Source of the DNA: Armatimonadaceae bacterium
GTDB taxonomy: Bacteria > Armatimonadota > Armatimonadia > Armatimonadales > Armatimonadaceae
Assembly: GCA_030446525.1 (NCBI GenBank)
Contig: JAUJNC010000018.1
Span: forward strand, 1 to 17,388
Direction of reading: 5' to 3'
DNA length: 17,388 nucleotides
A program made the translations under genes and the position numbers. Numbering within the stretch: the first letter of the stretch is position 1; each line of letters begins with the position of its first letter. The notes beneath the pieces are model-generated. The model was given only the letters and a program-made list of their open reading frames with translations, made no database searches and was not told the origin of the DNA. Shown here piece by piece: positions 4,325 to 13,964 of the stretch.

Positions 4325-4905
4325 AAGACGTTATCAAGTTCGGAACCAACCGCTCGGCACCGCACGCTGCCGCTGTCACGGCTGCGGCAAGACCTTTACG
4401 CTCAACCCCAAGAGCCGCGCGTTCTCACGCCGAGAAGGAGCAGCAGATCTGCCGGGCGCTGCGGGAGCGCACTTCCCAACGTGGCATCGCCCGCACGCTC
4501 CAGGTGGGCCGGCAGACCATCCGGGCGGTGCGCAAAAACGCCGCCCGCATAGAAGCCAAGTTCCAGCAGCACGGCATCACGAGTGTGCCCGCACCGCAGG
4601 GCGACGCTATCGAGATAGACGAGCTATGCATCCGGGTGTCTCCCAGCCTGTGGCTGTGGACGGCGGTGTCTCGTCAGGTGCGGCAAGTGGTCGGCTTCGT
4701 CATCGGTGATCGTACGGATGCGATGCTCAATCTGGTCTGGTCGGACGTGCCTGGAAGATTACCGGGACAAGCCCGTCTACAGCGATTACTTGGGCGCCTA
4801 TGCCGTTTCTTTGCGGCAGGGCAGCACCATCCCTGCGACAAGGGTTCTGGTCAGACGAGCCAGGTCGAAGGTCTCAACAACTGTACGGACGGCAAGCAGT
4901 CATAG
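4325..4905 (+). pseudogene. IS1-family transposase, frameshifted and 3'-truncated
   Basis: The N-terminal zinc-ribbon end reads CRCHGCGKTFTLNPKSRA (from about 4367) in one frame. The next frame gives EKEQQICRALRERTSQRGIA, then GRQTIRAVRKNAARIEAK, the InsA-like helix-turn-helix. VPAPQGDAIEIDEL holds the first catalytic Asp-Glu region, and VVGFVIGDRTDA follows. The segment after DEL (CIRVSPSLWLW) is altered. A frameshift near 4755 moves the conserved YRDKPVYSDYLGAYAVSLRQ into another frame, and QHHPCDKGSGQTSQVEGLNN returns to the first. The C-terminal arginine-rich part is missing after about 4880. The enzyme is therefore inactive, and its end abuts the IS4 relic. Confidence 0.85.
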
Positions 4906-6347: not shown

Positions 6348-8399
6348 TCAGTCCGTCTTGATGAGGCCGGTGAAGGCGCTGACAAAGAGGGTGGACAGAT
6401 ACCAGCCGCTGATGCACACCAACCACAGCAGGCCCCAGTACCAGCCGCCGCCGGGGCGAGAGCGGTCGGGTATCCAGTACTCGACCTGGTGCAACTCGAT
6501 GATGGGCAGGAACTCGTCCAGGGCATAGATGGCGGGGTTGAAGTGCGGGTAGCCCGGCGAGACGAAGTCCTTCAGAGGCGGCTTCTCCCGCTCCGGCGTC
6601 GCGGTCACCGCCTGGGCGATGTCCCTCTCCTGCGCTTCCCAATCGGGCGCAGGGGGGCGCTTGGTCCCCTTCGGGAGTGCTGCCACCTGCTGGCGCCACT
6701 GGTCCTTGCGTTCCTCCAGTCGCGGCGCGATGAGCGCCCCGTCACGGCCCTGCACGACGCCCGGCAGGATGTCATGGCTGGCCGGGACCATCACGTTCTC
6801 CCGATAGGCGCGATCGAGCTGGGCGGCGGCGATCCCCCAGATGGCGACGGCGAACACGAGCGCCACCCACGGGCGGTAGCCGTAGCGGATCGGGATGTCC
6901 AGCAGCCAGAACTCCAGGGACTGACGCAGCCAGCGCCACAGGAAGAACCCGCCATAGGAGCGGCGGCGCTGGATGCGCTTGGCGATGGCGACTTCGCGGG
7001 CTTCGGCGTCGTTGCCGCCTTCGCGCAGGACCCTGGCCATCTGCTCATAGGGCTGGGGGTGGTACTCGCCTTGGTCGGAGAGCAGGAGCCAGCGGACGAT
7101 CTCGCTGCCGTGCTTGGGCATGTCGCGGCCCAGGCGTTCATAGGTGAAACCTTCTAAGAGGTAACCTTGCTTGCGCCCATCTTTGAGGCGGTATAAGCCG
7201 CAGCCGAACTCGACGAGCCGGTCTTCCCTCCAGTGCCGGGCGCGCTCCCCCCAGGAACGAGGCGGTTTAAGGGCGTGCCGGTCATCCAGCACGCCGACAC
7301 GGGCGTTGGTGAGTTCAACCGACCAGTCAATGTCCTCCTTGGGATGCCACAGGAACCGCTCCGCGACGTTCGCCTGCTCTAGGTCGATTGCGTACCCTTT
7401 GCCCCAGAAGGAACCGCCGTTGCAGTAAAGACTGCCGCGCAGATCCGCGCCGGACAAATATACGACCCCGGCGGCTTCGAAATCCTTCGTCAGGTGAACG
7501 TCGCCCGTGACATCAGCGCCGTACAAGCTGAGACAGGCCCCGCCCGCAAATCGGAACTTGGCGCCCTCGCAGTCGAGGACCCCGCCGACCTTGGCGCCGG
7601 CGAGGTCCACCGGGCCGGCCGCCTCGACGCCGCGCAGCAAGAGGCTCTGCCCGGTCTCGATGCTTTGGGCAAAGAAGCACTTCTCGCCTGGGTGCTGGAA
7701 CTTGGCGCCGTTGCAGTCGAGCTGGCCGCCGACCTTGGCGCCGGCGAGGTCCACCGGGCCGGCCGCCTCGACGCCGCGCAGCAAGAGGCTCTGCCCGGTC
7801 TCGATGCCCTGGGCAAAGAAGCACCTCTCTCCCTGGTGCTGGAACTTGGCGCCGTTGCAGGCGAGCTGGCCGCCGACCTTGGCGCCGTTGAGGTACACCG
7901 AGCCGGCCGCGACGAAAGATCTCTGGTCGCCATCTGAGGCGTTAGTGAGGGCAAGGCTGTACTCGGTGGTTAGGTACGATGCGTTGAACGTCTCGCGGAT
8001 CGTACAGCCGTAGAAGCCGAGATAGCGCACCGTCGCGGCCGTCACGTCCACGCCTCGCTCGAACGCGCAACGGGAAAACTTTAGGCCAAAACTGAGGTCG
8101 GTGTCGCGCAGATCCAGGCGGTCGCGGAATGCGGCTCCCACGAGAGTGATGCCCCTGGGGTCGACAGCCCCGGCGCGCAGGCAGAGGGCGCGCAATAGGG
8201 CCGGACGAATGACGCGGGCGTCTTCATCGTCGGGCCAGCGGGCGAGGAGGTCACACGCTTCGCCCTTTGCGGCACAGGAGAGGAGCGCCCGTTCGGCCGC
8301 GCGGAGCGGCAAGTAGTCGGCCCAGGGGTTCGAGGCCGTATGGCGGCTGCCGTTCAGGGCCCTTGGATGCCTTCCGAAGCGCCCCGGTAGTTCATACAT
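6348..8399 (-). CDS. Repeat-rich (pentapeptide-like) protein with two C-terminal membrane segments
   Basis: This 683-residue protein has three parts. An N-terminal region of about 100 residues has no clear family. Residues about 80-370 are built of short hydrophobic-polar units (such as GITLVGAAFRDRLDLRDTDL and GAKVGGQLDCNGAKF) that resemble pentapeptide-type right-handed beta-helices. The C-terminal part has a membrane segment near residues 508-528 (PWVALVFAVAIWGIAAAQL) and another near 652-674 (WYWGLLWLVCISGWYLSTLF), separated by about 120 charged, proline-rich residues. Two 48-residue units in the helix are nearly identical. Similar proteins are sometimes annotated as membrane-associated oxidoreductases, but I see no catalytic motif. 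ATG 8399 is preferred over TTG 8426, because the TTG lies inside a good -10 element. It lies downstream of Rep1 with its own promoter, so it is probably plasmid cargo of unknown function. Confidence 0.8.
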   Translation of the reverse strand: MYELPGRFGRHPRALNGSRHTASNPWADYLPLRAAERALLSCAAKGEACDLLARWPDDEDARVIRPALLRALCLRAGAVDPRGITLVGAAFRDRLDLRDTDLSFGLKFSRCAFERGVDVTAATVRYLGFYGCTIRETFNASYLTTEYSLALTNASDGDQRSFVAAGSVYLNGAKVGGQLACNGAKFQHQGERCFFAQGIETGQSLLLRGVEAAGPVDLAGAKVGGQLDCNGAKFQHPGEKCFFAQSIETGQSLLLRGVEAAGPVDLAGAKVGGVLDCEGAKFRFAGGACLSLYGADVTGDVHLTKDFEAAGVVYLSGADLRGSLYCNGGSFWGKGYAIDLEQANVAERFLWHPKEDIDWSVELTNARVGVLDDRHALKPPRSWGERARHWREDRLVEFGCGLYRLKDGRKQGYLLEGFTYERLGRDMPKHGSEIVRWLLLSDQGEYHPQPYEQMARVLREGGNDAEAREVAIAKRIQRRRSYGGFFLWRWLRQSLEFWLLDIPIRYGYRPWVALVFAVAIWGIAAAQLDRAYRENVMVPASHDILPGVVQGRDGALIAPRLEERKDQWRQQVAALPKGTKRPPAPDWEAQERDIAQAVTATPEREKPPLKDFVSPGYPHFNPAIYALDEFLPIIELHQVEYWIPDRSRPGGGWYWGLLWLVCISGWYLSTLFVSAFTGLIKTD
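7560..7847 (-). repeat. Two 144-bp tandem repeats inside the membrane protein gene
   Basis: Bases 7560-7703 and 7704-7847 match at about 132 of 144 positions (hand count), an exact 48-codon period. A third, diverged and shorter match follows from 7848. Each unit encodes GAKVGGQLDCNGAKFQH, a CFFAQ-IETGQSLLLRG segment and VEAAGPVDLA. The high DNA identity points to a recent in-frame duplication that lengthened the beta-helix by one unit. Confidence 0.85.
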
Positions 8400-8567: not shown

Positions 8568-9401
8568 TCAGGCTGTCCCACGGGTCGTCCTCCCGCCGTC
8601 TTCCCCCGTTAGGCTAGCCGCGATCTGGGCGCGGACGTCCTCGCGCTCTTGGGCCGTGCCAACGGGCACCGCCACGCCGCGCTTTCTCAGGATCTCGCAC
8701 AGCGCTGCGCAGAAGTAGGCGCCCGGCTTTTCCAGGGAAGGTAACGCGTCATTGGCCATCCGCTTCCTCAGGCTGCGCAGCGCCTCGTCCCAGGCGCTGC
8801 CCCAGCCGGCCTGGACCGCCACCTCCCACAGCTGCTCGAAGCGGCGGACGCTGTGCGTATCCCCGGTGAGGGCCACGACCCTCTGGATCGGCTCCAGTGT
8901 CGCTTTCATCAAATCCAGCTCGCCCTTAACGTTCAACGTTCCTGAGTCTTTTTCAAATATAACTGCGTCTTCTTCAGACAACGTTCTTATAGGACCGGAA
9001 AAAAACTTCCGGTCCGGACCGGAAGAATTCTTCCGGTCAGCAGCGGCGGCGCCGTAGACGGCGCAAAGGTCCTCGATCCAGTAGATGTTGGTTTGGCGCA
9101 GGCCGCGCTGCTCGGTGGTGATCAGGCCCCGCTCCCCCAGCTCCGCCAGGTGCGCGCGGACCGAGCGGGGGGTGAGTTTGCGCTCCGCCGCCAGCTTGTC
9201 CTGGCCCGGGTAGCAGCTAAGATCCTGCCAGGCGTGCATGCGCAGCACGAAGTAGGTCACCTTCGCGCCGTCGGAAAGCGCGGGGTCGAGCAGCACCAGG
9301 TTGCTGGCCTGGGTAAAGCCGGCGGCATCGATCGGGGAGCGGAACTGGAGGCGATCGCCGTTCCGCCCGCGCCCCGTGCCTTCATTTGAAGAAGTCTTCA
9401 T
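8568..9401 (-). CDS. Winged-helix plasmid replication initiator-like protein (Rep1)
   Basis: This 277-residue protein carries a winged helix-turn-helix (HTH_36 type) at about residues 38-110: LSDGAKVTYFVLRMHAW, then CYPGQDKLAAERKLTPRSVR, AHLAELGERGLITTEQRG and TNIYWIEDL. A variable linker follows (115-160). A C-terminal helical region contains WDEALRSLRKRMAN and KPGAYFCAALCEIL. The layout (N-terminal winged helix, linker, C-terminal domain with a GAY motif) is shared with Rep2 to the right, and is typical of initiators that bind origin repeats. The linker DNA holds two perfect inverted repeats. ATG 9401 has AAGG at good spacing; GTG 9437 would add 12 residues. It is third in a leftward operon after the ATPase and RHH genes, separated from the latter by a hairpin. 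A transcriptional regulator role cannot be excluded. Confidence 0.65.
   Translation of the reverse strand: MKTSSNEGTGRGRNGDRLQFRSPIDAAGFTQASNLVLLDPALSDGAKVTYFVLRMHAWQDLSCYPGQDKLAAERKLTPRSVRAHLAELGERGLITTEQRGLRQTNIYWIEDLCAVYGAAAADRKNSSGPDRKFFSGPIRTLSEEDAVIFEKDSGTLNVKGELDLMKATLEPIQRVVALTGDTHSVRRFEQLWEVAVQAGWGSAWDEALRSLRKRMANDALPSLEKPGAYFCAALCEILRKRGVAVPVGTAQEREDVRAQIAASLTGEDGGRTTRGTA
8993..9038 (-). repeat. Two tandem inverted repeats in the Rep1 linker-coding region (candidate in-gene origin iterons)
   Basis: GACCGGAA (8993-9000) and TTCCGGTC (9007-9014) flank AAAAAC. Two bases later a perfect 22-bp palindrome, arms GACCGGAAGAA and TTCTTCCGGTC (9017-9038), repeats the same core. The junction GGTCCGGACC (9011-9020) is itself palindromic. 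They encode the linker around DRKNSSGPDRKFFSGP. Known RepA_N-type plasmid origins lie in the same place within their rep gene, so a Rep1 binding site or origin is a reasonable inference. Confidence 0.55.
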
Positions 9402-11172: not shown

Positions 11173-11287
11173 GTCACCAAAGGCCCCGGTTCTTGGTTGT
11201 TCAGGAGCGCGAATCTGAAACACGCAACAGCTCGGCGCCTCCTGGGAGGCATTTCCGGCAGCAATACGCGGTTAGCCCGCAGAGATG

Positions 11288-11377
11288 CCAGGCTGCGCCA
11301 CCGGCACAAGCCAGGCTGCGCCACCGGCACAAGCAGGTACGCGCGCCGGTGGCGCAGCTAGCTGCGCCACCGGCGCA
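11288..11377 (+). repeat. Array of palindromic TGYGCCACYGGCRCA motifs, including a 34-bp perfect palindrome
   Basis: Two exact 23-bp direct repeats start at 11288 and 11311 (CCAGGCTGCGCCACCGGC, continuing ACAAG). They are followed by a gapless 34-bp palindrome (11343-11376) whose arms are GCGCCGGTGGCGCAGCT and AGCTGCGCCACCGGCGC. Each copy contains the near-symmetric core TGCGCCACCGGCrC, giving four copies in 90 bases. A fifth, TTGTGCCACTGGCACAA, lies about 900 bases away in the Rep2 leader. This looks like an iteron cluster or multi-site operator for a dimeric protein. Confidence 0.6.
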
Positions 11378-11910
11378 ATCAACCACCGGGCTTGTGACAC
11401 GGCGGTGGCAGCAGCATCGCACCGACTGCAGATCGTGGCCGTGCCCCGACTCACTACCCCGGATCAACCGGGAAAACGCACAAGGTGGTGCCGGACCCGC
11501 GCCGGGAGGGCGCAAGGGGGATGAGAGCCCCGCCACGGGGACGGCTGGGACGGCGGCAGAGCGGCCGGGACGGGCGGCCAGGCCTATGATCGGGGGGCAA
11601 CCCGGGTGTTTGGCCACAGCAGGCGCAGGAACAGGCGCAACAGGGGGGGAGCGGCCCTGCCTTTGCGTACCGACAAAGGCCATGCGCGGGGAGATCACCT
11701 CCCGAAGAGCGGCACAGGAGGGAGGGCGGGCTGCCCCCGCAGAAGTGCAGGCCGGCAGGAGGGTGGGGGGTTGGGGTATGCGAGCGCCTCCGTAGTATGA
11801 CCAGATCGGGCAGAAAAACCCGGCTCAGGCAGGGTGGGTGGAACCGAGGGAAGGTGGAGAACGGGGGCGTAGGGCCTCGCTGCGCTCGGCCTTGTGCCTA
11901 TCCCCGGGCA

Positions 11911-11960
11911 AAGAAAAAGGGCCCGCCGCAAAGGGTGCGGTCCTGGGCCCTCCCTCTTTC
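11911..11960 (+). terminator. Hairpin with T-rich tail, possible terminator
   Basis: GGGCCC (11919-11924) pairs with GGGCCC (11945-11950), and CCGCA (11926-11930) with TGCGG (11936-11940). An A-rich left flank faces the T/C-rich tail tccctctttctt. No gene clearly ends here on the plus strand, so it may insulate the Rep2 control region from read-through. Confidence 0.3.
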
Positions 11961-12107
11961 TTGCTCCACACATAATCATCGGCGCAAAGCGCCGATCCCT
12001 GTACAAGCGATGCTATCCGCGCTGCGCCATCCGGGCATAACCTGAGCAGGACCTACCCGGTCCGCCACCACCGCAGAAACTCGCTGCCCGGTATAAGTAC
12101 TGGCATT

Positions 12108-12138
12108 TTGACGGACTTTCCAAATGCCGTTGTATAAT
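12108..12138 (+). promoter_or_regulatory. Predicted promoter of the Rep2 operon leader
   Basis: TTGACG (12108-12113) and a perfect TATAAT (12133-12138) are separated by 19 bases, two more than ideal, in an AT-rich patch. Transcription would start near 12145, about 440 bases before the first gene. It points at the convergent antisense promoter at 12288. Confidence 0.55.
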
Positions 12139-12143
12139 GGTGT

Positions 12144-12184
12144 AAAAATAGATACGCCCTCTCGTTCCAAGGCGAGAGGGCGTA
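12144..12184 (-). terminator. Intrinsic terminator of the antisense RNA
   Basis: Perfect 12-bp stem (12184-12173 with 12164-12153) with an eight-base loop, followed on the minus strand by TCTATTTTT. Read on the plus strand it has no T-run, so its direction is leftward. Confidence 0.65.
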
Positions 12185-12253
12185 CGGCAAAGGACCCTGG
12201 GCGGGTCGTACGTCATGCTTTCGTTTGGCGACAGAAGCATGACTGGTCTTAGC
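12144..12253 (-). ncRNA. Predicted antisense (counter-transcribed) RNA controlling the Rep2 operon
   Basis: A minus-strand promoter at 12288-12260 would start an RNA near 12253. The RNA contains a 9-bp stem (12243-12235 with 12220-12212) with a 14-base loop, then a 12-bp terminator stem ending in five Us at 12148-12144. Its length is about 110 bases and it is fully complementary to the start of the rep leader. The facing loop in the leader carries UUGG, which fits the YUNR loop motif of fast-pairing antisense RNAs. Plasmids such as pT181 and pIP501 control rep this way, by promoting termination in the leader. This is inferred from sequence only. Confidence 0.5.
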
Positions 12254-12259
12254 AAAAAG

Positions 12260-12288
12260 ATCATACCACAGTTGTGCCACTGGCACAA
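12260..12288 (-). promoter_or_regulatory. Predicted antisense promoter, overlapped by a palindromic operator
   Basis: On the minus strand TTGTGC (12288-12283) is followed after exactly 17 bases by TATGAT (12265-12260), with TG at the extended -10 position. The -35 and adjoining spacer coincide with TTGTGCCACTGGCACAA (12272-12288), a perfect palindrome around one base and a match to the motif array at 11288-11377. A protein bound there would block the antisense RNA and so favour rep expression. Confidence 0.5.
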
Positions 12289-12488
12289 GTTACCTTGCGC
12301 CAATGAGCCAGTTGTCTCCCTTGTCTCACGGGGGCGACTCCGTCTCCGTGACGCGACGCGCTTTCTGTGGTAGTGAAGGCAGCTCCCCTTCTCCCGCCAG
12401 TGTTCCTTTGCCCCAAGCACATGGGCGGCAAGGGTGACGAGGTGACAGGTGTCAGGCTTTGCCCGGAGTAATTACCGGGCAAGTCCAG

Positions 12489-12533
12489 AAAGCCGGTCCG
12501 TGAGTTTCCCTTGCCGCTCACGGACCGGCTTTT
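12489..12533 (+). terminator. Strong intrinsic terminator in the Rep2 leader (attenuator)
   Basis: AAAGCCGGTCCGTGAG (12489-12504) pairs perfectly over 16 bases with CTCACGGACCGGCTTT (12517-12532) around a 12-base loop, followed by TGCTTTG. No gene precedes it on this strand except the leader from 12145, and the first gene starts about 50 bases later. That is the expected position of an attenuator. It could alternatively isolate the operon from upstream transcripts. Confidence 0.7.
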
Positions 12534-12585
12534 GCTTTGTCCGTTCGACCATGACAAAGCAGCTAGAAAGGCAAAGGAAATGAAG

Positions 12586-12870
12586 ATGCCACCCATACAG
12601 GTTGTGCAGGTCTCGCCCATACAACAGGGCGCACTGCTGGCCCTGTTGTCGGTCAAGATCGGCTCCCTTACCATCCACAAGTGCCGCCTCATCCAGCATG
12701 CAGAGAAGCCGCCCTGGGTTTCTCCCCCGCAAGAGTCGTGGCTCGACGCTGCAGGCCAGCGGCGCTACGCGACGCTGCTGCAGATCCCGTGCGCTTGGCG
12801 CATGCCGCTGACTCACGCCTGCTGGTCTGCTTGGCAGCAACTCAAGCAGCGGGAGGAGCAAAGCAGATGA
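12586..12870 (+). CDS. Small SpoVG-like protein of unknown function in the Rep2 operon
   Basis: This 94-residue protein has the core LLSVKIGSLTIHKCRLIQ, then PPWVSPPQESWLD, GQRRYATLLQIP and a C-terminal helix. Strand-turn-strand, then a W/FVxxPQ segment, then an RY-x-LxxIP segment resembles SpoVG and related small nucleic-acid-binding proteins. The similarity is structural in pattern and modest. ATG 12586 has AAGGAA six bases upstream; ATG 12580 overlaps that site. The stop overlaps the Rep2 start as ATGA, so translation is coupled. Its position suggests a role in replication control, perhaps as an RNA or DNA-binding cofactor, which is inference. Confidence 0.65.
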   Translation: MPPIQVVQVSPIQQGALLALLSVKIGSLTIHKCRLIQHAEKPPWVSPPQESWLDAAGQRRYATLLQIPCAWRMPLTHACWSAWQQLKQREEQSR

Positions 12871-13964
12871 ATCAAAGCAGCAGGGGAGATAGTTTCTCCC
12901 AGAAGTGGGGTGAGGATCCGTTCACCTTGAGGGGCCACACCCAGATCCCCAACGCGCTGATCGAATACGCCGCGCGCCTGGGCCTGCGCTCCGAAGAGTG
13001 CTGGCTGATCTGCTGCATCCTGCGCTTCAAGTACAACGCCGACGCCCCCTACCCGTCGCAAGATAAGCTTGCTGCGCTGTTCGGCCAGAGCATCGACACC
13101 GTGCAGCGCACCGTCAAGAAGATCGTTGCTAAGAAACTGCTCAATCTCGAGCGCATCCGCAGCCACCGTGGCGTCTTCACGCACGCCGTCTATGACTTCA
13201 CTCCGCTGCGTTTCGCCCTGAACGAATGCTACTACCAGGACCACCCGCAGGAGCGTCCCCAGCCGCCGCAAGCCTCGGAGCACGCTAGGCCGCAGAAATG
13301 CGGCCCGGACCACACCGCAGATCTGCGGCCTGGTCAAATCGAGACACCAGGCCGCAGAAATGCGTCCCGGACCACACCGCATTTCTGCGGCCCTAATAAG
13401 AATCTGCTGTCGGAAGAATATACACAAGAAAACAGCAGCAGCAAGAAGCGTGGGCCCGAGCCCCCGCCGGCCCAGCCTGTTGAAGTGTCTGCTGCTGCCT
13501 CTCTGGTGGAGGAGTTGGTTGCTAACGACCTAAATCACAGCGCCGCGCTTCGCCTGGCCCGGGAGAGGCCCGACGAGTGTCGCCGCCAGCTCGAGTACCT
13601 GCCGCATGTGGCCGAGTTCACCAGCAGTAGAGGGGCGTACTTGCGCAGCGCCATCGAACAGGGATTCGGGCCGCCCAAGGGCTACGCCCACGCACAGGAG
13701 CGCGAAGCGCAGGAGGCAAGGCGTGCCGAGGCTGCCAGAGCCCGGGAAGCAGCGCAACAGCAGGAAGAGGATCGCCAGGCCGTCATACTCGCGGCGCGCG
13801 CCCGGCTGGAGCGGGACCCGGTAGTCTGGGCGCGCATTCAGGCCGAGGCCGAAGCCAAGCTCCCGGTGCCGCTGCGGGGCAAGCCGGGGCACGTGGCGTA
13901 CAAGCCGGCGCTGGAGGCGCTCATCAACGAGATCGTCGCCGGCATCGCGCTCGGAGGAGTGTGA
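12867..13964 (+). CDS. Winged-helix plasmid replication initiator (Rep2)
   Basis: This 365-residue protein has an N-terminal winged helix (HTH_36 type) at about 28-112: IPNALIEYAARLGLRSEECW, then YPSQDKLAALFGQSIDTVQR, TVKKIVAKKLLNLERIRS and FTHAVYDFTPL. A repetitive linker (about 130-200) is encoded by inverted-repeat DNA. A C-terminal domain (about 210-275) contains LPHVAEFTSSRGAYLRSAIE, a charged coiled-coil stretch (275-310) and a tail. This order is typical of plasmid initiators that recognise repeats within their own gene, and it matches Rep1 despite low sequence similarity. Expression is probably set by the attenuated leader. The ATG overlaps the previous stop; GGAGG lies about ten bases upstream. 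The frame extends further upstream but would overlap the SpoVG-like gene. Confidence 0.75.
   Translation: MNQSSRGDSFSQKWGEDPFTLRGHTQIPNALIEYAARLGLRSEECWLICCILRFKYNADAPYPSQDKLAALFGQSIDTVQRTVKKIVAKKLLNLERIRSHRGVFTHAVYDFTPLRFALNECYYQDHPQERPQPPQASEHARPQKCGPDHTADLRPGQIETPGRRNASRTTPHFCGPNKNLLSEEYTQENSSSKKRGPEPPPAQPVEVSAAASLVEELVANDLNHSAALRLARERPDECRRQLEYLPHVAEFTSSRGAYLRSAIEQGFGPPKGYAHAQEREAQEARRAEAARAREAAQQQEEDRQAVILAARARLERDPVVWARIQAEAEAKLPVPLRGKPGHVAYKPALEALINEIVAGIALGGV
13287..13392 (+). repeat. Two tandem inverted-repeat units in the Rep2 linker-coding region (candidate in-gene origin)
   Basis: A 33-base sequence starting AGGCCGCAGAAATGCG occurs at 13287-13319 and again at 13349-13381 with one mismatch, a 62-base period. 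Each copy is the left half of an inverted repeat. In unit one AGGCCGCAGA pairs with TCTGCGGCCT (13322-13331), and CCGCAGATCTGCGG (13315-13328) is itself a palindrome. In unit two GGCCGCAGAAATGC pairs with GCATTTCTGCGGCC (13379-13392). The encoded linker (RPQKCGPDHTADLRPGQ) looks shaped by the DNA. These are good candidate Rep2 binding sites. Confidence 0.65.

Follow-up and report, generated by a model that had tools for sequence, protein, structure and literature searches.

Organization of the rep2 locus

The window, by which we mean the whole stretch of 17,388 nucleotides analysed, probably belongs to a plasmid of the little-studied phylum Armatimonadota and carries the genes rep1 and rep2. 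The features around rep2 are collected in Table 1. The gene is preceded by a small reading frame, ORF1, and by a long leader that holds a predicted promoter, a convergent minus-strand cassette of promoter and terminator, a terminator-like hairpin, and a family of complementary words (X1, Y1, X2, Y3, and X3). An array of ~23-bp units lies 0.9 kb upstream of the antisense promoter, in front of the ATPase, RHH-like, and rep1 genes. Terminator-like hairpins are also present on both strands (plus 11906-11956, minus 11950-11919) and may serve to insulate rep2 from rep1 and its surroundings.

Table 1 Features of the rep2 locus, in window coordinates.
Feature	Position	Strand	Description	Basis
Repeat array	11287-11378	.	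units TGCGCCACCGGC(A/G)CAA at 11293, 11316, and 11362 by pattern; inverted part-copy at ~11344-11358 by eye	pattern
Predicted rep2 leader promoter	12108-12138	+	TTGACG-19-TATAAT; predicted mRNA start ~12145	sequence
Predicted antisense RNA	12144-12253	-	~110 nt, complementary to the first ~110 nt of the leader	fold, shuffles
Antisense terminator	12144-12185	-	13-bp stem 12185-12152, loop CCUUGGAA, U5 12148-12144	default terminator scan
X1	12186-12205	+	word GGCAAAGGA at 12186, within the antisense target	pairs with 12393-12412, -30.5 kcal/mol
Hairpin I of predicted antisense RNA	12212-12243	-		fold
Antisense promoter	12288-12260	-	TTGTGC-17-TATGAT, extended -10 TG; -35 matches 3/6	sequence
Palindrome over antisense -35	12272-12288	.	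perfect, TTGTGCC-ACT-GGCACAA; candidate operator	pattern
Y1	12393-12412	+	holds TTCCTTTGCC, word TCCTTTGCC at 12404	complementary to X1 and the ORF1 RBS
X2	12426-12434	+	CGGCAAGGG	complementary to the hairpin loop, less perfectly to Y1
Terminator-like leader hairpin	12489-12540	+	perfect 16-bp inverted repeat 12489-12504/12517-12532	sequence, custom script
Y3	in hairpin loop	+	word TCCCTTGCC at 12507	complementary to X2 and the RBS
X3, ORF1 ribosome-binding region	12570-12580	+	GGCAAAGGAAA, word GGCAAAGGA at 12570	sequence
ORF1	12580-12870	+	96 aa (94 aa from ATG 12586); overlaps rep2 by ATGA	sequence, coding composition
rep2	12867-13964	+	DnaD_N/HTH_36, phage O-like initiator, 365 aa; own RBS GGGAGGAG	profiles, model
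Repeats in rep2	13290-13390	+	four CCGCA-N4-TGCGG, at 13290, 13315, 13352 (one mismatch), and 13377	pattern

The GC content of ORF1 at the three codon positions (0.65, 0.48, and 0.78) differs little from that of rep2 (0.68, 0.48, and 0.78) and of rep1 (0.65, 0.49, and 0.79), and this composition, together with the ATGA overlap with rep2, indicates that ORF1 is probably translated. A preliminary description of the locus had presented it as a SpoVG-like gene coupled to rep2. The overlap of the two frames stands, but the SpoVG-like assignment is unsupported, as ORF1 has no match in Pfam or NCBIfam up to E 0.1, among PHROGs up to 0.01, or among PDB sequences up to E 10. Its predicted order of strands followed by a helix presumably resembles that of SpoVG, and the single-sequence AlphaFold model, with a pLDDT of 47, is too low in confidence to judge the fold. 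The search for homologues, in which four word-sharing candidates were scored, returned none besides ORF1 itself.

The Rep2 initiator and the repeats within its gene

Rep2 is predicted to be a plasmid-type, DnaD/phage-O-like initiator whose gene would contain its own origin repeats. It resembles the phage lambda O and O-like proteins in the match of its residues 22-216 to PHROG 678, "replication initiation O-like" (E 1.6e-9), and in having repeats inside the initiator gene, as the lambda O gene does. It differs from them in falling below the cut-off of NCBIfam phage_O_Nterm (16 versus 45.5 bits) and in that tblastn against 50,697 phage records gave nothing at E 1e-5. RepA_N, a Pfam family, was not detected in Rep2 with Pfam; we take structure 4pt7 to be a pSK41-type RepA. 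Among plasmids, tblastn with Rep2 retrieved 33 records, all distant, with at most 44% of the query covered among the 20 matches listed, and the viral contigs scanned with alignment A1, P0003, P0012, and P0024 yielded no relative. Alignment A1 comprises 22 of the 45 protein matches, including P0016, which has a different N-domain.

The four CCGCA-N4-TGCGG repeats, which are probable origin iterons, are read in three frames and encode PQKCG, TADLR, RRNAS, and PHFCG, residues held in the low-confidence segment 139-203 of the Rep2 model. The conserved family peptides at these places are PQKCG, TAEMR, RRNA, and PHFCG. With strict patterns, all four motifs are found in 11 of the 15 best protein matches, query included (P0002-P0006, P0008-P0012, and P0015), three in P0001, P0013, and P0014, and two in P0007, while among the other 30 of the 45 matches only P0021 has all four. 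The 4-base spacers implied across the frames agree within 14 of the 15 proteins, the exception being that of the window; permutations gave a mean of 9.1 proteins, and 7 of 5000 were as high. The rep gene of L001, a distant relative, also carries three exact DNA copies of the repeat (6394-6542). The concordance of the spacers is conservation at the DNA level, as expected for an origin inside the initiator gene, and the conservation of the repeats over three frames would make such an origin recognisable from protein sequence alone.

A sister branch (P0017, P0018, P0022, P0024, P0025, and P0027) has other peptides at the repeat position, such as TGQNCPV or TVQICTV. These would fit palindromes with other half-sites (GGGCA-N4-TGCCC and GTGCA-N4-TGCAC), and initiator specificity may thus be readable from the protein. 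Two in-gene palindromes, ACCGGAA-N-TTCCGGT, are present in rep1 too (window 8992-9040). Judged by eye, P0016 combines the C-terminal module of Rep2 with one other kind of N-terminal part, and P0032, P0034, and P0040 combine it with yet another, giving modular initiators as in pPR9/pSK41. Passages of PMC5703833 describe the Rep of pPR9 as having a pfam13730 (HTH_36) N-domain and lying behind the pSK41 rep control region (99% nucleotide identity), and they present this region, in pSK41, as antisense-controlled. The hybrid initiators of pPR9 and pUSA03 share this N-domain with Rep2 according to the same passages, but they are staphylococcal and their C-domain is of the pSK41 type. That an HTH_36 initiator under such control might be undescribed, as had been proposed for rep2, is undercut by pPR9.

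The antisense cassette and its counterpart in a distant relative

The preliminary description had placed in the leader a forward promoter, a convergent promoter with 17-base spacing, and an antisense RNA of ~110 bases with a stem-loop and a U-run terminator; the signals for all three are present, and the transcript itself is predicted. The 19-nt spacer of the forward promoter is longer than optimal. Its hexamers, TTGACG and TATAAT, recur with a 17-nt spacer as a near-consensus promoter on the minus strand at 10877-10849, immediately before the ATPase gene, and this lends them credibility in the host. Given the predicted mRNA start at ~12145, the antisense RNA would cover the first ~110 nt of the mRNA. 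The predicted 110-nt RNA folds at -48.4 kcal/mol (z -5.68), and none of 200 shuffles was equally stable. Its terminator stem is separated by three bases from the U5 run, and the mRNA loop opposite its hairpin I carries UUGGCG at 12225-12230.

A cassette of promoter and terminator (at least 9 bp, either strand) occurred in none of 1000 dinucleotide shuffles of 12080-12600, the thresholds having been chosen post hoc, after the window had been seen. The default scan of 11700-13000 lists no promoter, the forward spacer being 19 nt and the antisense -35 matching at 3/6. The Rfam covariance models gave no match at the gathering threshold in the window, and the four obtained up to E 5 in 12080-12600 are all below that threshold and belong to no counter-transcript family.

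L001 (48% amino acid identity to Rep2) is the one relative from the genome-contig search and the sole one examined at the level of leader DNA. Its leader contains a minus-strand promoter, TTGACA-18-TATGGT (5960-5931), which was found at default thresholds (one in 600 bases versus 0.2 expected). A terminator follows at 5849-5816 (-28.5 kcal/mol); as the default scan found none in this leader, versus 1.2 expected in shuffles, this terminator rests on custom scripts, with the stem trimmed, and on the fold. The predicted L001 antisense RNA, of ~113 nt, has a position equivalent to that of the window and is similarly structured (z -6.24; 0 of 200 shuffles as stable). It would span the region just before and around the possible start codons of the L001 rep gene. 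No obvious sequence is common to the two RNAs.

From the anatomy of the cassette and the positionally equivalent cassette in this distant relative, we infer that rep2 is likely to be controlled by an antisense RNA expressed from its leader, with a probability of about two in three. Copy number would then probably be limited by the ~110-nt RNA running from 12253 to 12144, acting against the 5'-terminal ~110 nt of the rep2 mRNA, and the pairing of the two probably begins at the hairpin loops. That the cassette instead gives a small RNA with no part in the control of rep2, or goes untranscribed, is unlikely: the weak -35 would agree with this, but the RNA would cover the predicted rep2 mRNA at its 5' end and an independent cassette is found in the L001 leader.

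A survey of both strands of 145,962 nt, made up of the window and 14 of 16 loci (L002 and L003 were omitted as duplicates of L001), gave three distinct cassettes of 11 bp or more, two of which are the antisense cassettes of the two rep leaders. The third, at L001 plus 4342-4501, near the start of an integrase frame, has a perfect TATAAT, an extended -10, and a terminator of up to 17 bp, and could be an attenuator or a small RNA. With an alternative terminator definition, five distinct cassettes were obtained: window plus 12108-12218 (hairpin -12.5 kcal/mol), L001 plus 4342, L001 minus 6653, L001 minus 5960, and L006 plus 335; this definition misses the antisense cassette of the window itself, owing to the 3-nt gap before its U-run. 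Eight further loci (72,614 nt, some overlapping the earlier ones), which hold relatives of the C-terminal part of Rep2 only, contain no cassette, and other rep operons were rejected as carriers of the same control on this ground.

Neither a leader hairpin or terminator of the 16-bp type (custom script) nor a relative of ORF1 was found in L001, so that the leader switch considered below is not common to it. The leader DNA has no blastn match in 72,556 plasmid records and two short ones, of 30-38 nt, in 291 genomes of the phylum of G001. The latter (L025 and L026) were taken as chance, tblastn with ORF1 reaching only E 1.1 and 2.0 there and the L025 match lying inside long unrelated frames.

Leader folding and possible modes of control

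The leader hairpin had been described as a strong terminator, and the whole layout as attenuation of the pT181/pIP501 type. The perfect repeat is there, followed by TTTTGCTTT; the default scan does not list it, its 12-nt loop exceeding the limit of 8, and its U-run is interrupted (UUUUGCUUU). As passages of PMC5703833 present them, pT181 and pIP501 have an antisense RNA against a long leader and a terminator before rep, to which the predicted antisense RNA and the terminator-like hairpin of the window would correspond; the initiator family differs. In classical attenuation, the antisense RNA would remove a pre-emptor that otherwise pairs with the 5' arm of the terminator, and the layout of the leader and its 16-bp hairpin agree with such a scheme. 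No pre-emptor beyond chance was found in the leader, however: the best competitor for the 5' arm reaches -16.8 kcal/mol, versus -32.3 for the hairpin and a median of -16.2 in 60 shuffles. In partition functions, the arm is paired at 0.94-0.99 (second and third pairs) with or without 12145-12253 blocked, and the hairpin is formed in all four states modelled. Counter-transcript control keeps its support in the anatomy and the L001 cassette. Attenuation of this type, for which no terminator was found in the L001 leader either, is distinctly improbable.

The complementary words point elsewhere. The 12-nt hairpin loop TTTCCCTTGCCG (Y3) is complementary to X2 and, at 10 of 11 positions, to the RBS. 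The RBS 11-mer GGCAAAGGAAA has two complementary sites in the leader with at most one mismatch, a number reached in 0 of 5000 shuffles, at least one site being present in 50 of 5000. For words that were not preselected, the largest family of 9-mers that occurs in both orientations has six copies, matched by 1 of 300 shuffles; with 8-mers the observed family size is reached by 4 of 300, and with 10-mers by 3 of 300. The X1:Y1 duplex (-30.5 kcal/mol) compares with -16.4 kcal/mol for the local hairpin 12392-12440, and the X2:loop and loop:RBS duplexes are worth -20.8 and -14.9 kcal/mol.

On blocking 12145-12253 in nested folding, the unpaired fraction of Y1 rises from 0.12 to 0.60, while that of X2 falls from 0.46 to 0.21 and that of the start region 12580-12588 from 0.76 to 0.54. 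The RBS passes from 0.76 to 0.68 and is mostly open both ways, and the hairpin loop is ~0.76-0.77 unpaired in all four states, in folds that leave out the pseudoknots X2:loop and loop:RBS. With 12145-12253 blocked, X2 pairs with 12386-12397 and not with Y1; the Y1:X2 pairing (0.58) is seen only when 12203-12253 alone is blocked.

The word family, with the RBS and the hairpin loop among its members, suggests a switch that is translational or mixed, and the folding supports this in part. In the scheme that we propose, the bound antisense RNA would occupy X1 and free Y1. The region around Y1, or Y1 itself, would capture X2, which would in turn release the hairpin loop Y3. The freed hairpin may then terminate transcription, or its loop may cover the RBS of ORF1, or both, and rep2 would be affected through the ATGA overlap. 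Without the antisense RNA, X1:Y1 and X2:Y3 would form and rep2 would be made. The RBS that rep2 has of its own speaks against this word-by-word order, which is tentative and, in our view, rather unlikely in its details.

Simpler control, at translation only, is a possibility to be taken seriously, even if the odds are against it: the antisense RNA would refold the leader so that the ORF1/rep2 RBS is hidden, as in pSK41, and the 16-bp hairpin would serve mainly to hide the RBS and would hardly terminate. The complementarity of the loop to the RBS, the broken U-run, the L001 leader in which no terminator was found, and the less open start region upon blocking of the antisense target all agree with it. 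On the other side, the RBS is largely open in the nested folds of both states, and the antisense target stops ~320 nt short of the start codon, versus ~100 nt in pSK41 according to passages of PMC5703833. Judged by its elements, the predicted control of the window is most like the pSK41 type. In those passages (PMC5703833), pSK41 and other RepA_N plasmids, with an RNAI of ~83 nt, share with the window a stem-loop antisense RNA against the rep leader, a DnaD-like N-domain, and repeats central in the rep linker, and the in-gene origin repeats and this N-domain speak again for translational control. The window is unlike them in having no RepA_N by Pfam, a 96-aa ORF between leader and rep, a target much farther from the RBS, and a strong leader hairpin with a terminator-like tail.

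Another conceivable arrangement is like that of ColIb-P9/IncB (I-complex) plasmids: the mRNA loop UUGGCG of the window would pair with CGCCAA at 12298-12303 into an activating pseudoknot, the CGCCAA loop of the antisense RNA would block this pairing, and ORF1 would be the coupled leader frame. The window has UUGGCG in the target hairpin loop, CGCCAA downstream, and a reading frame that overlaps rep, and the motif 5'-rUUGGCG-3' is named in the title of ColIb-P9 work cited by PMC10724649. The resemblance does not extend to the place of the complement, which lies ~270 nt before the ORF1 RBS and does not adjoin it, nor to the antisense RNA, which has two hairpins. To our knowledge, the I-complex initiators are unrelated to Rep2. 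By our estimate, which is not a computed one, a 6-nt match would readily arise by chance in a leader this long, and we regard this arrangement as very improbable.

Most known examples of counter-transcript control come from plasmids of proteobacteria and of Gram-positive bacteria. A cyanobacterial case, pSYSA, appears in PMC9978351. Armatimonadota and plasmid replication are barely mentioned together in the open-access literature searched, to which this statement is confined. Within the searches made, the new elements are ORF1, the family of words by which the antisense target is connected with the hairpin loop and the RBS, the palindrome that the antisense promoter shares with the upstream array, and the probable host group. 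A testable replicon that combined an antisense RNA with repeats inside its rep gene and a separate operator would offer a handle on the plasmids of Armatimonadota.

The palindrome that covers the antisense -35 has its only other occurrences in the window, at up to two mismatches, in the three units of the upstream array, which is a possible centromere or operator. The window has three exact copies of its 14-base core GCCACNGGCACAAG, two of them in the array, versus 0.00 expected in 200 shuffles with a pattern chosen after the copies had been seen; the 13-base core GCCACNGGCACAA is absent from the 16 loci examined. As the motif is common to the array and the antisense -35, an array-binding protein may regulate the antisense promoter. 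In the fullest version of this idea, a DNA-binding protein encoded on the probable Armatimonadota plasmid would control the antisense gene as well as bind the array. The neighbouring operon offers two candidates, the ribbon-helix-helix (RHH)-like protein and Rep1. The leader itself would act as a switch of several states, on termination and translation together. This combination is improbable as a whole; if true, it would couple the copy number of replicon 2 to segregation or to replicon 1.
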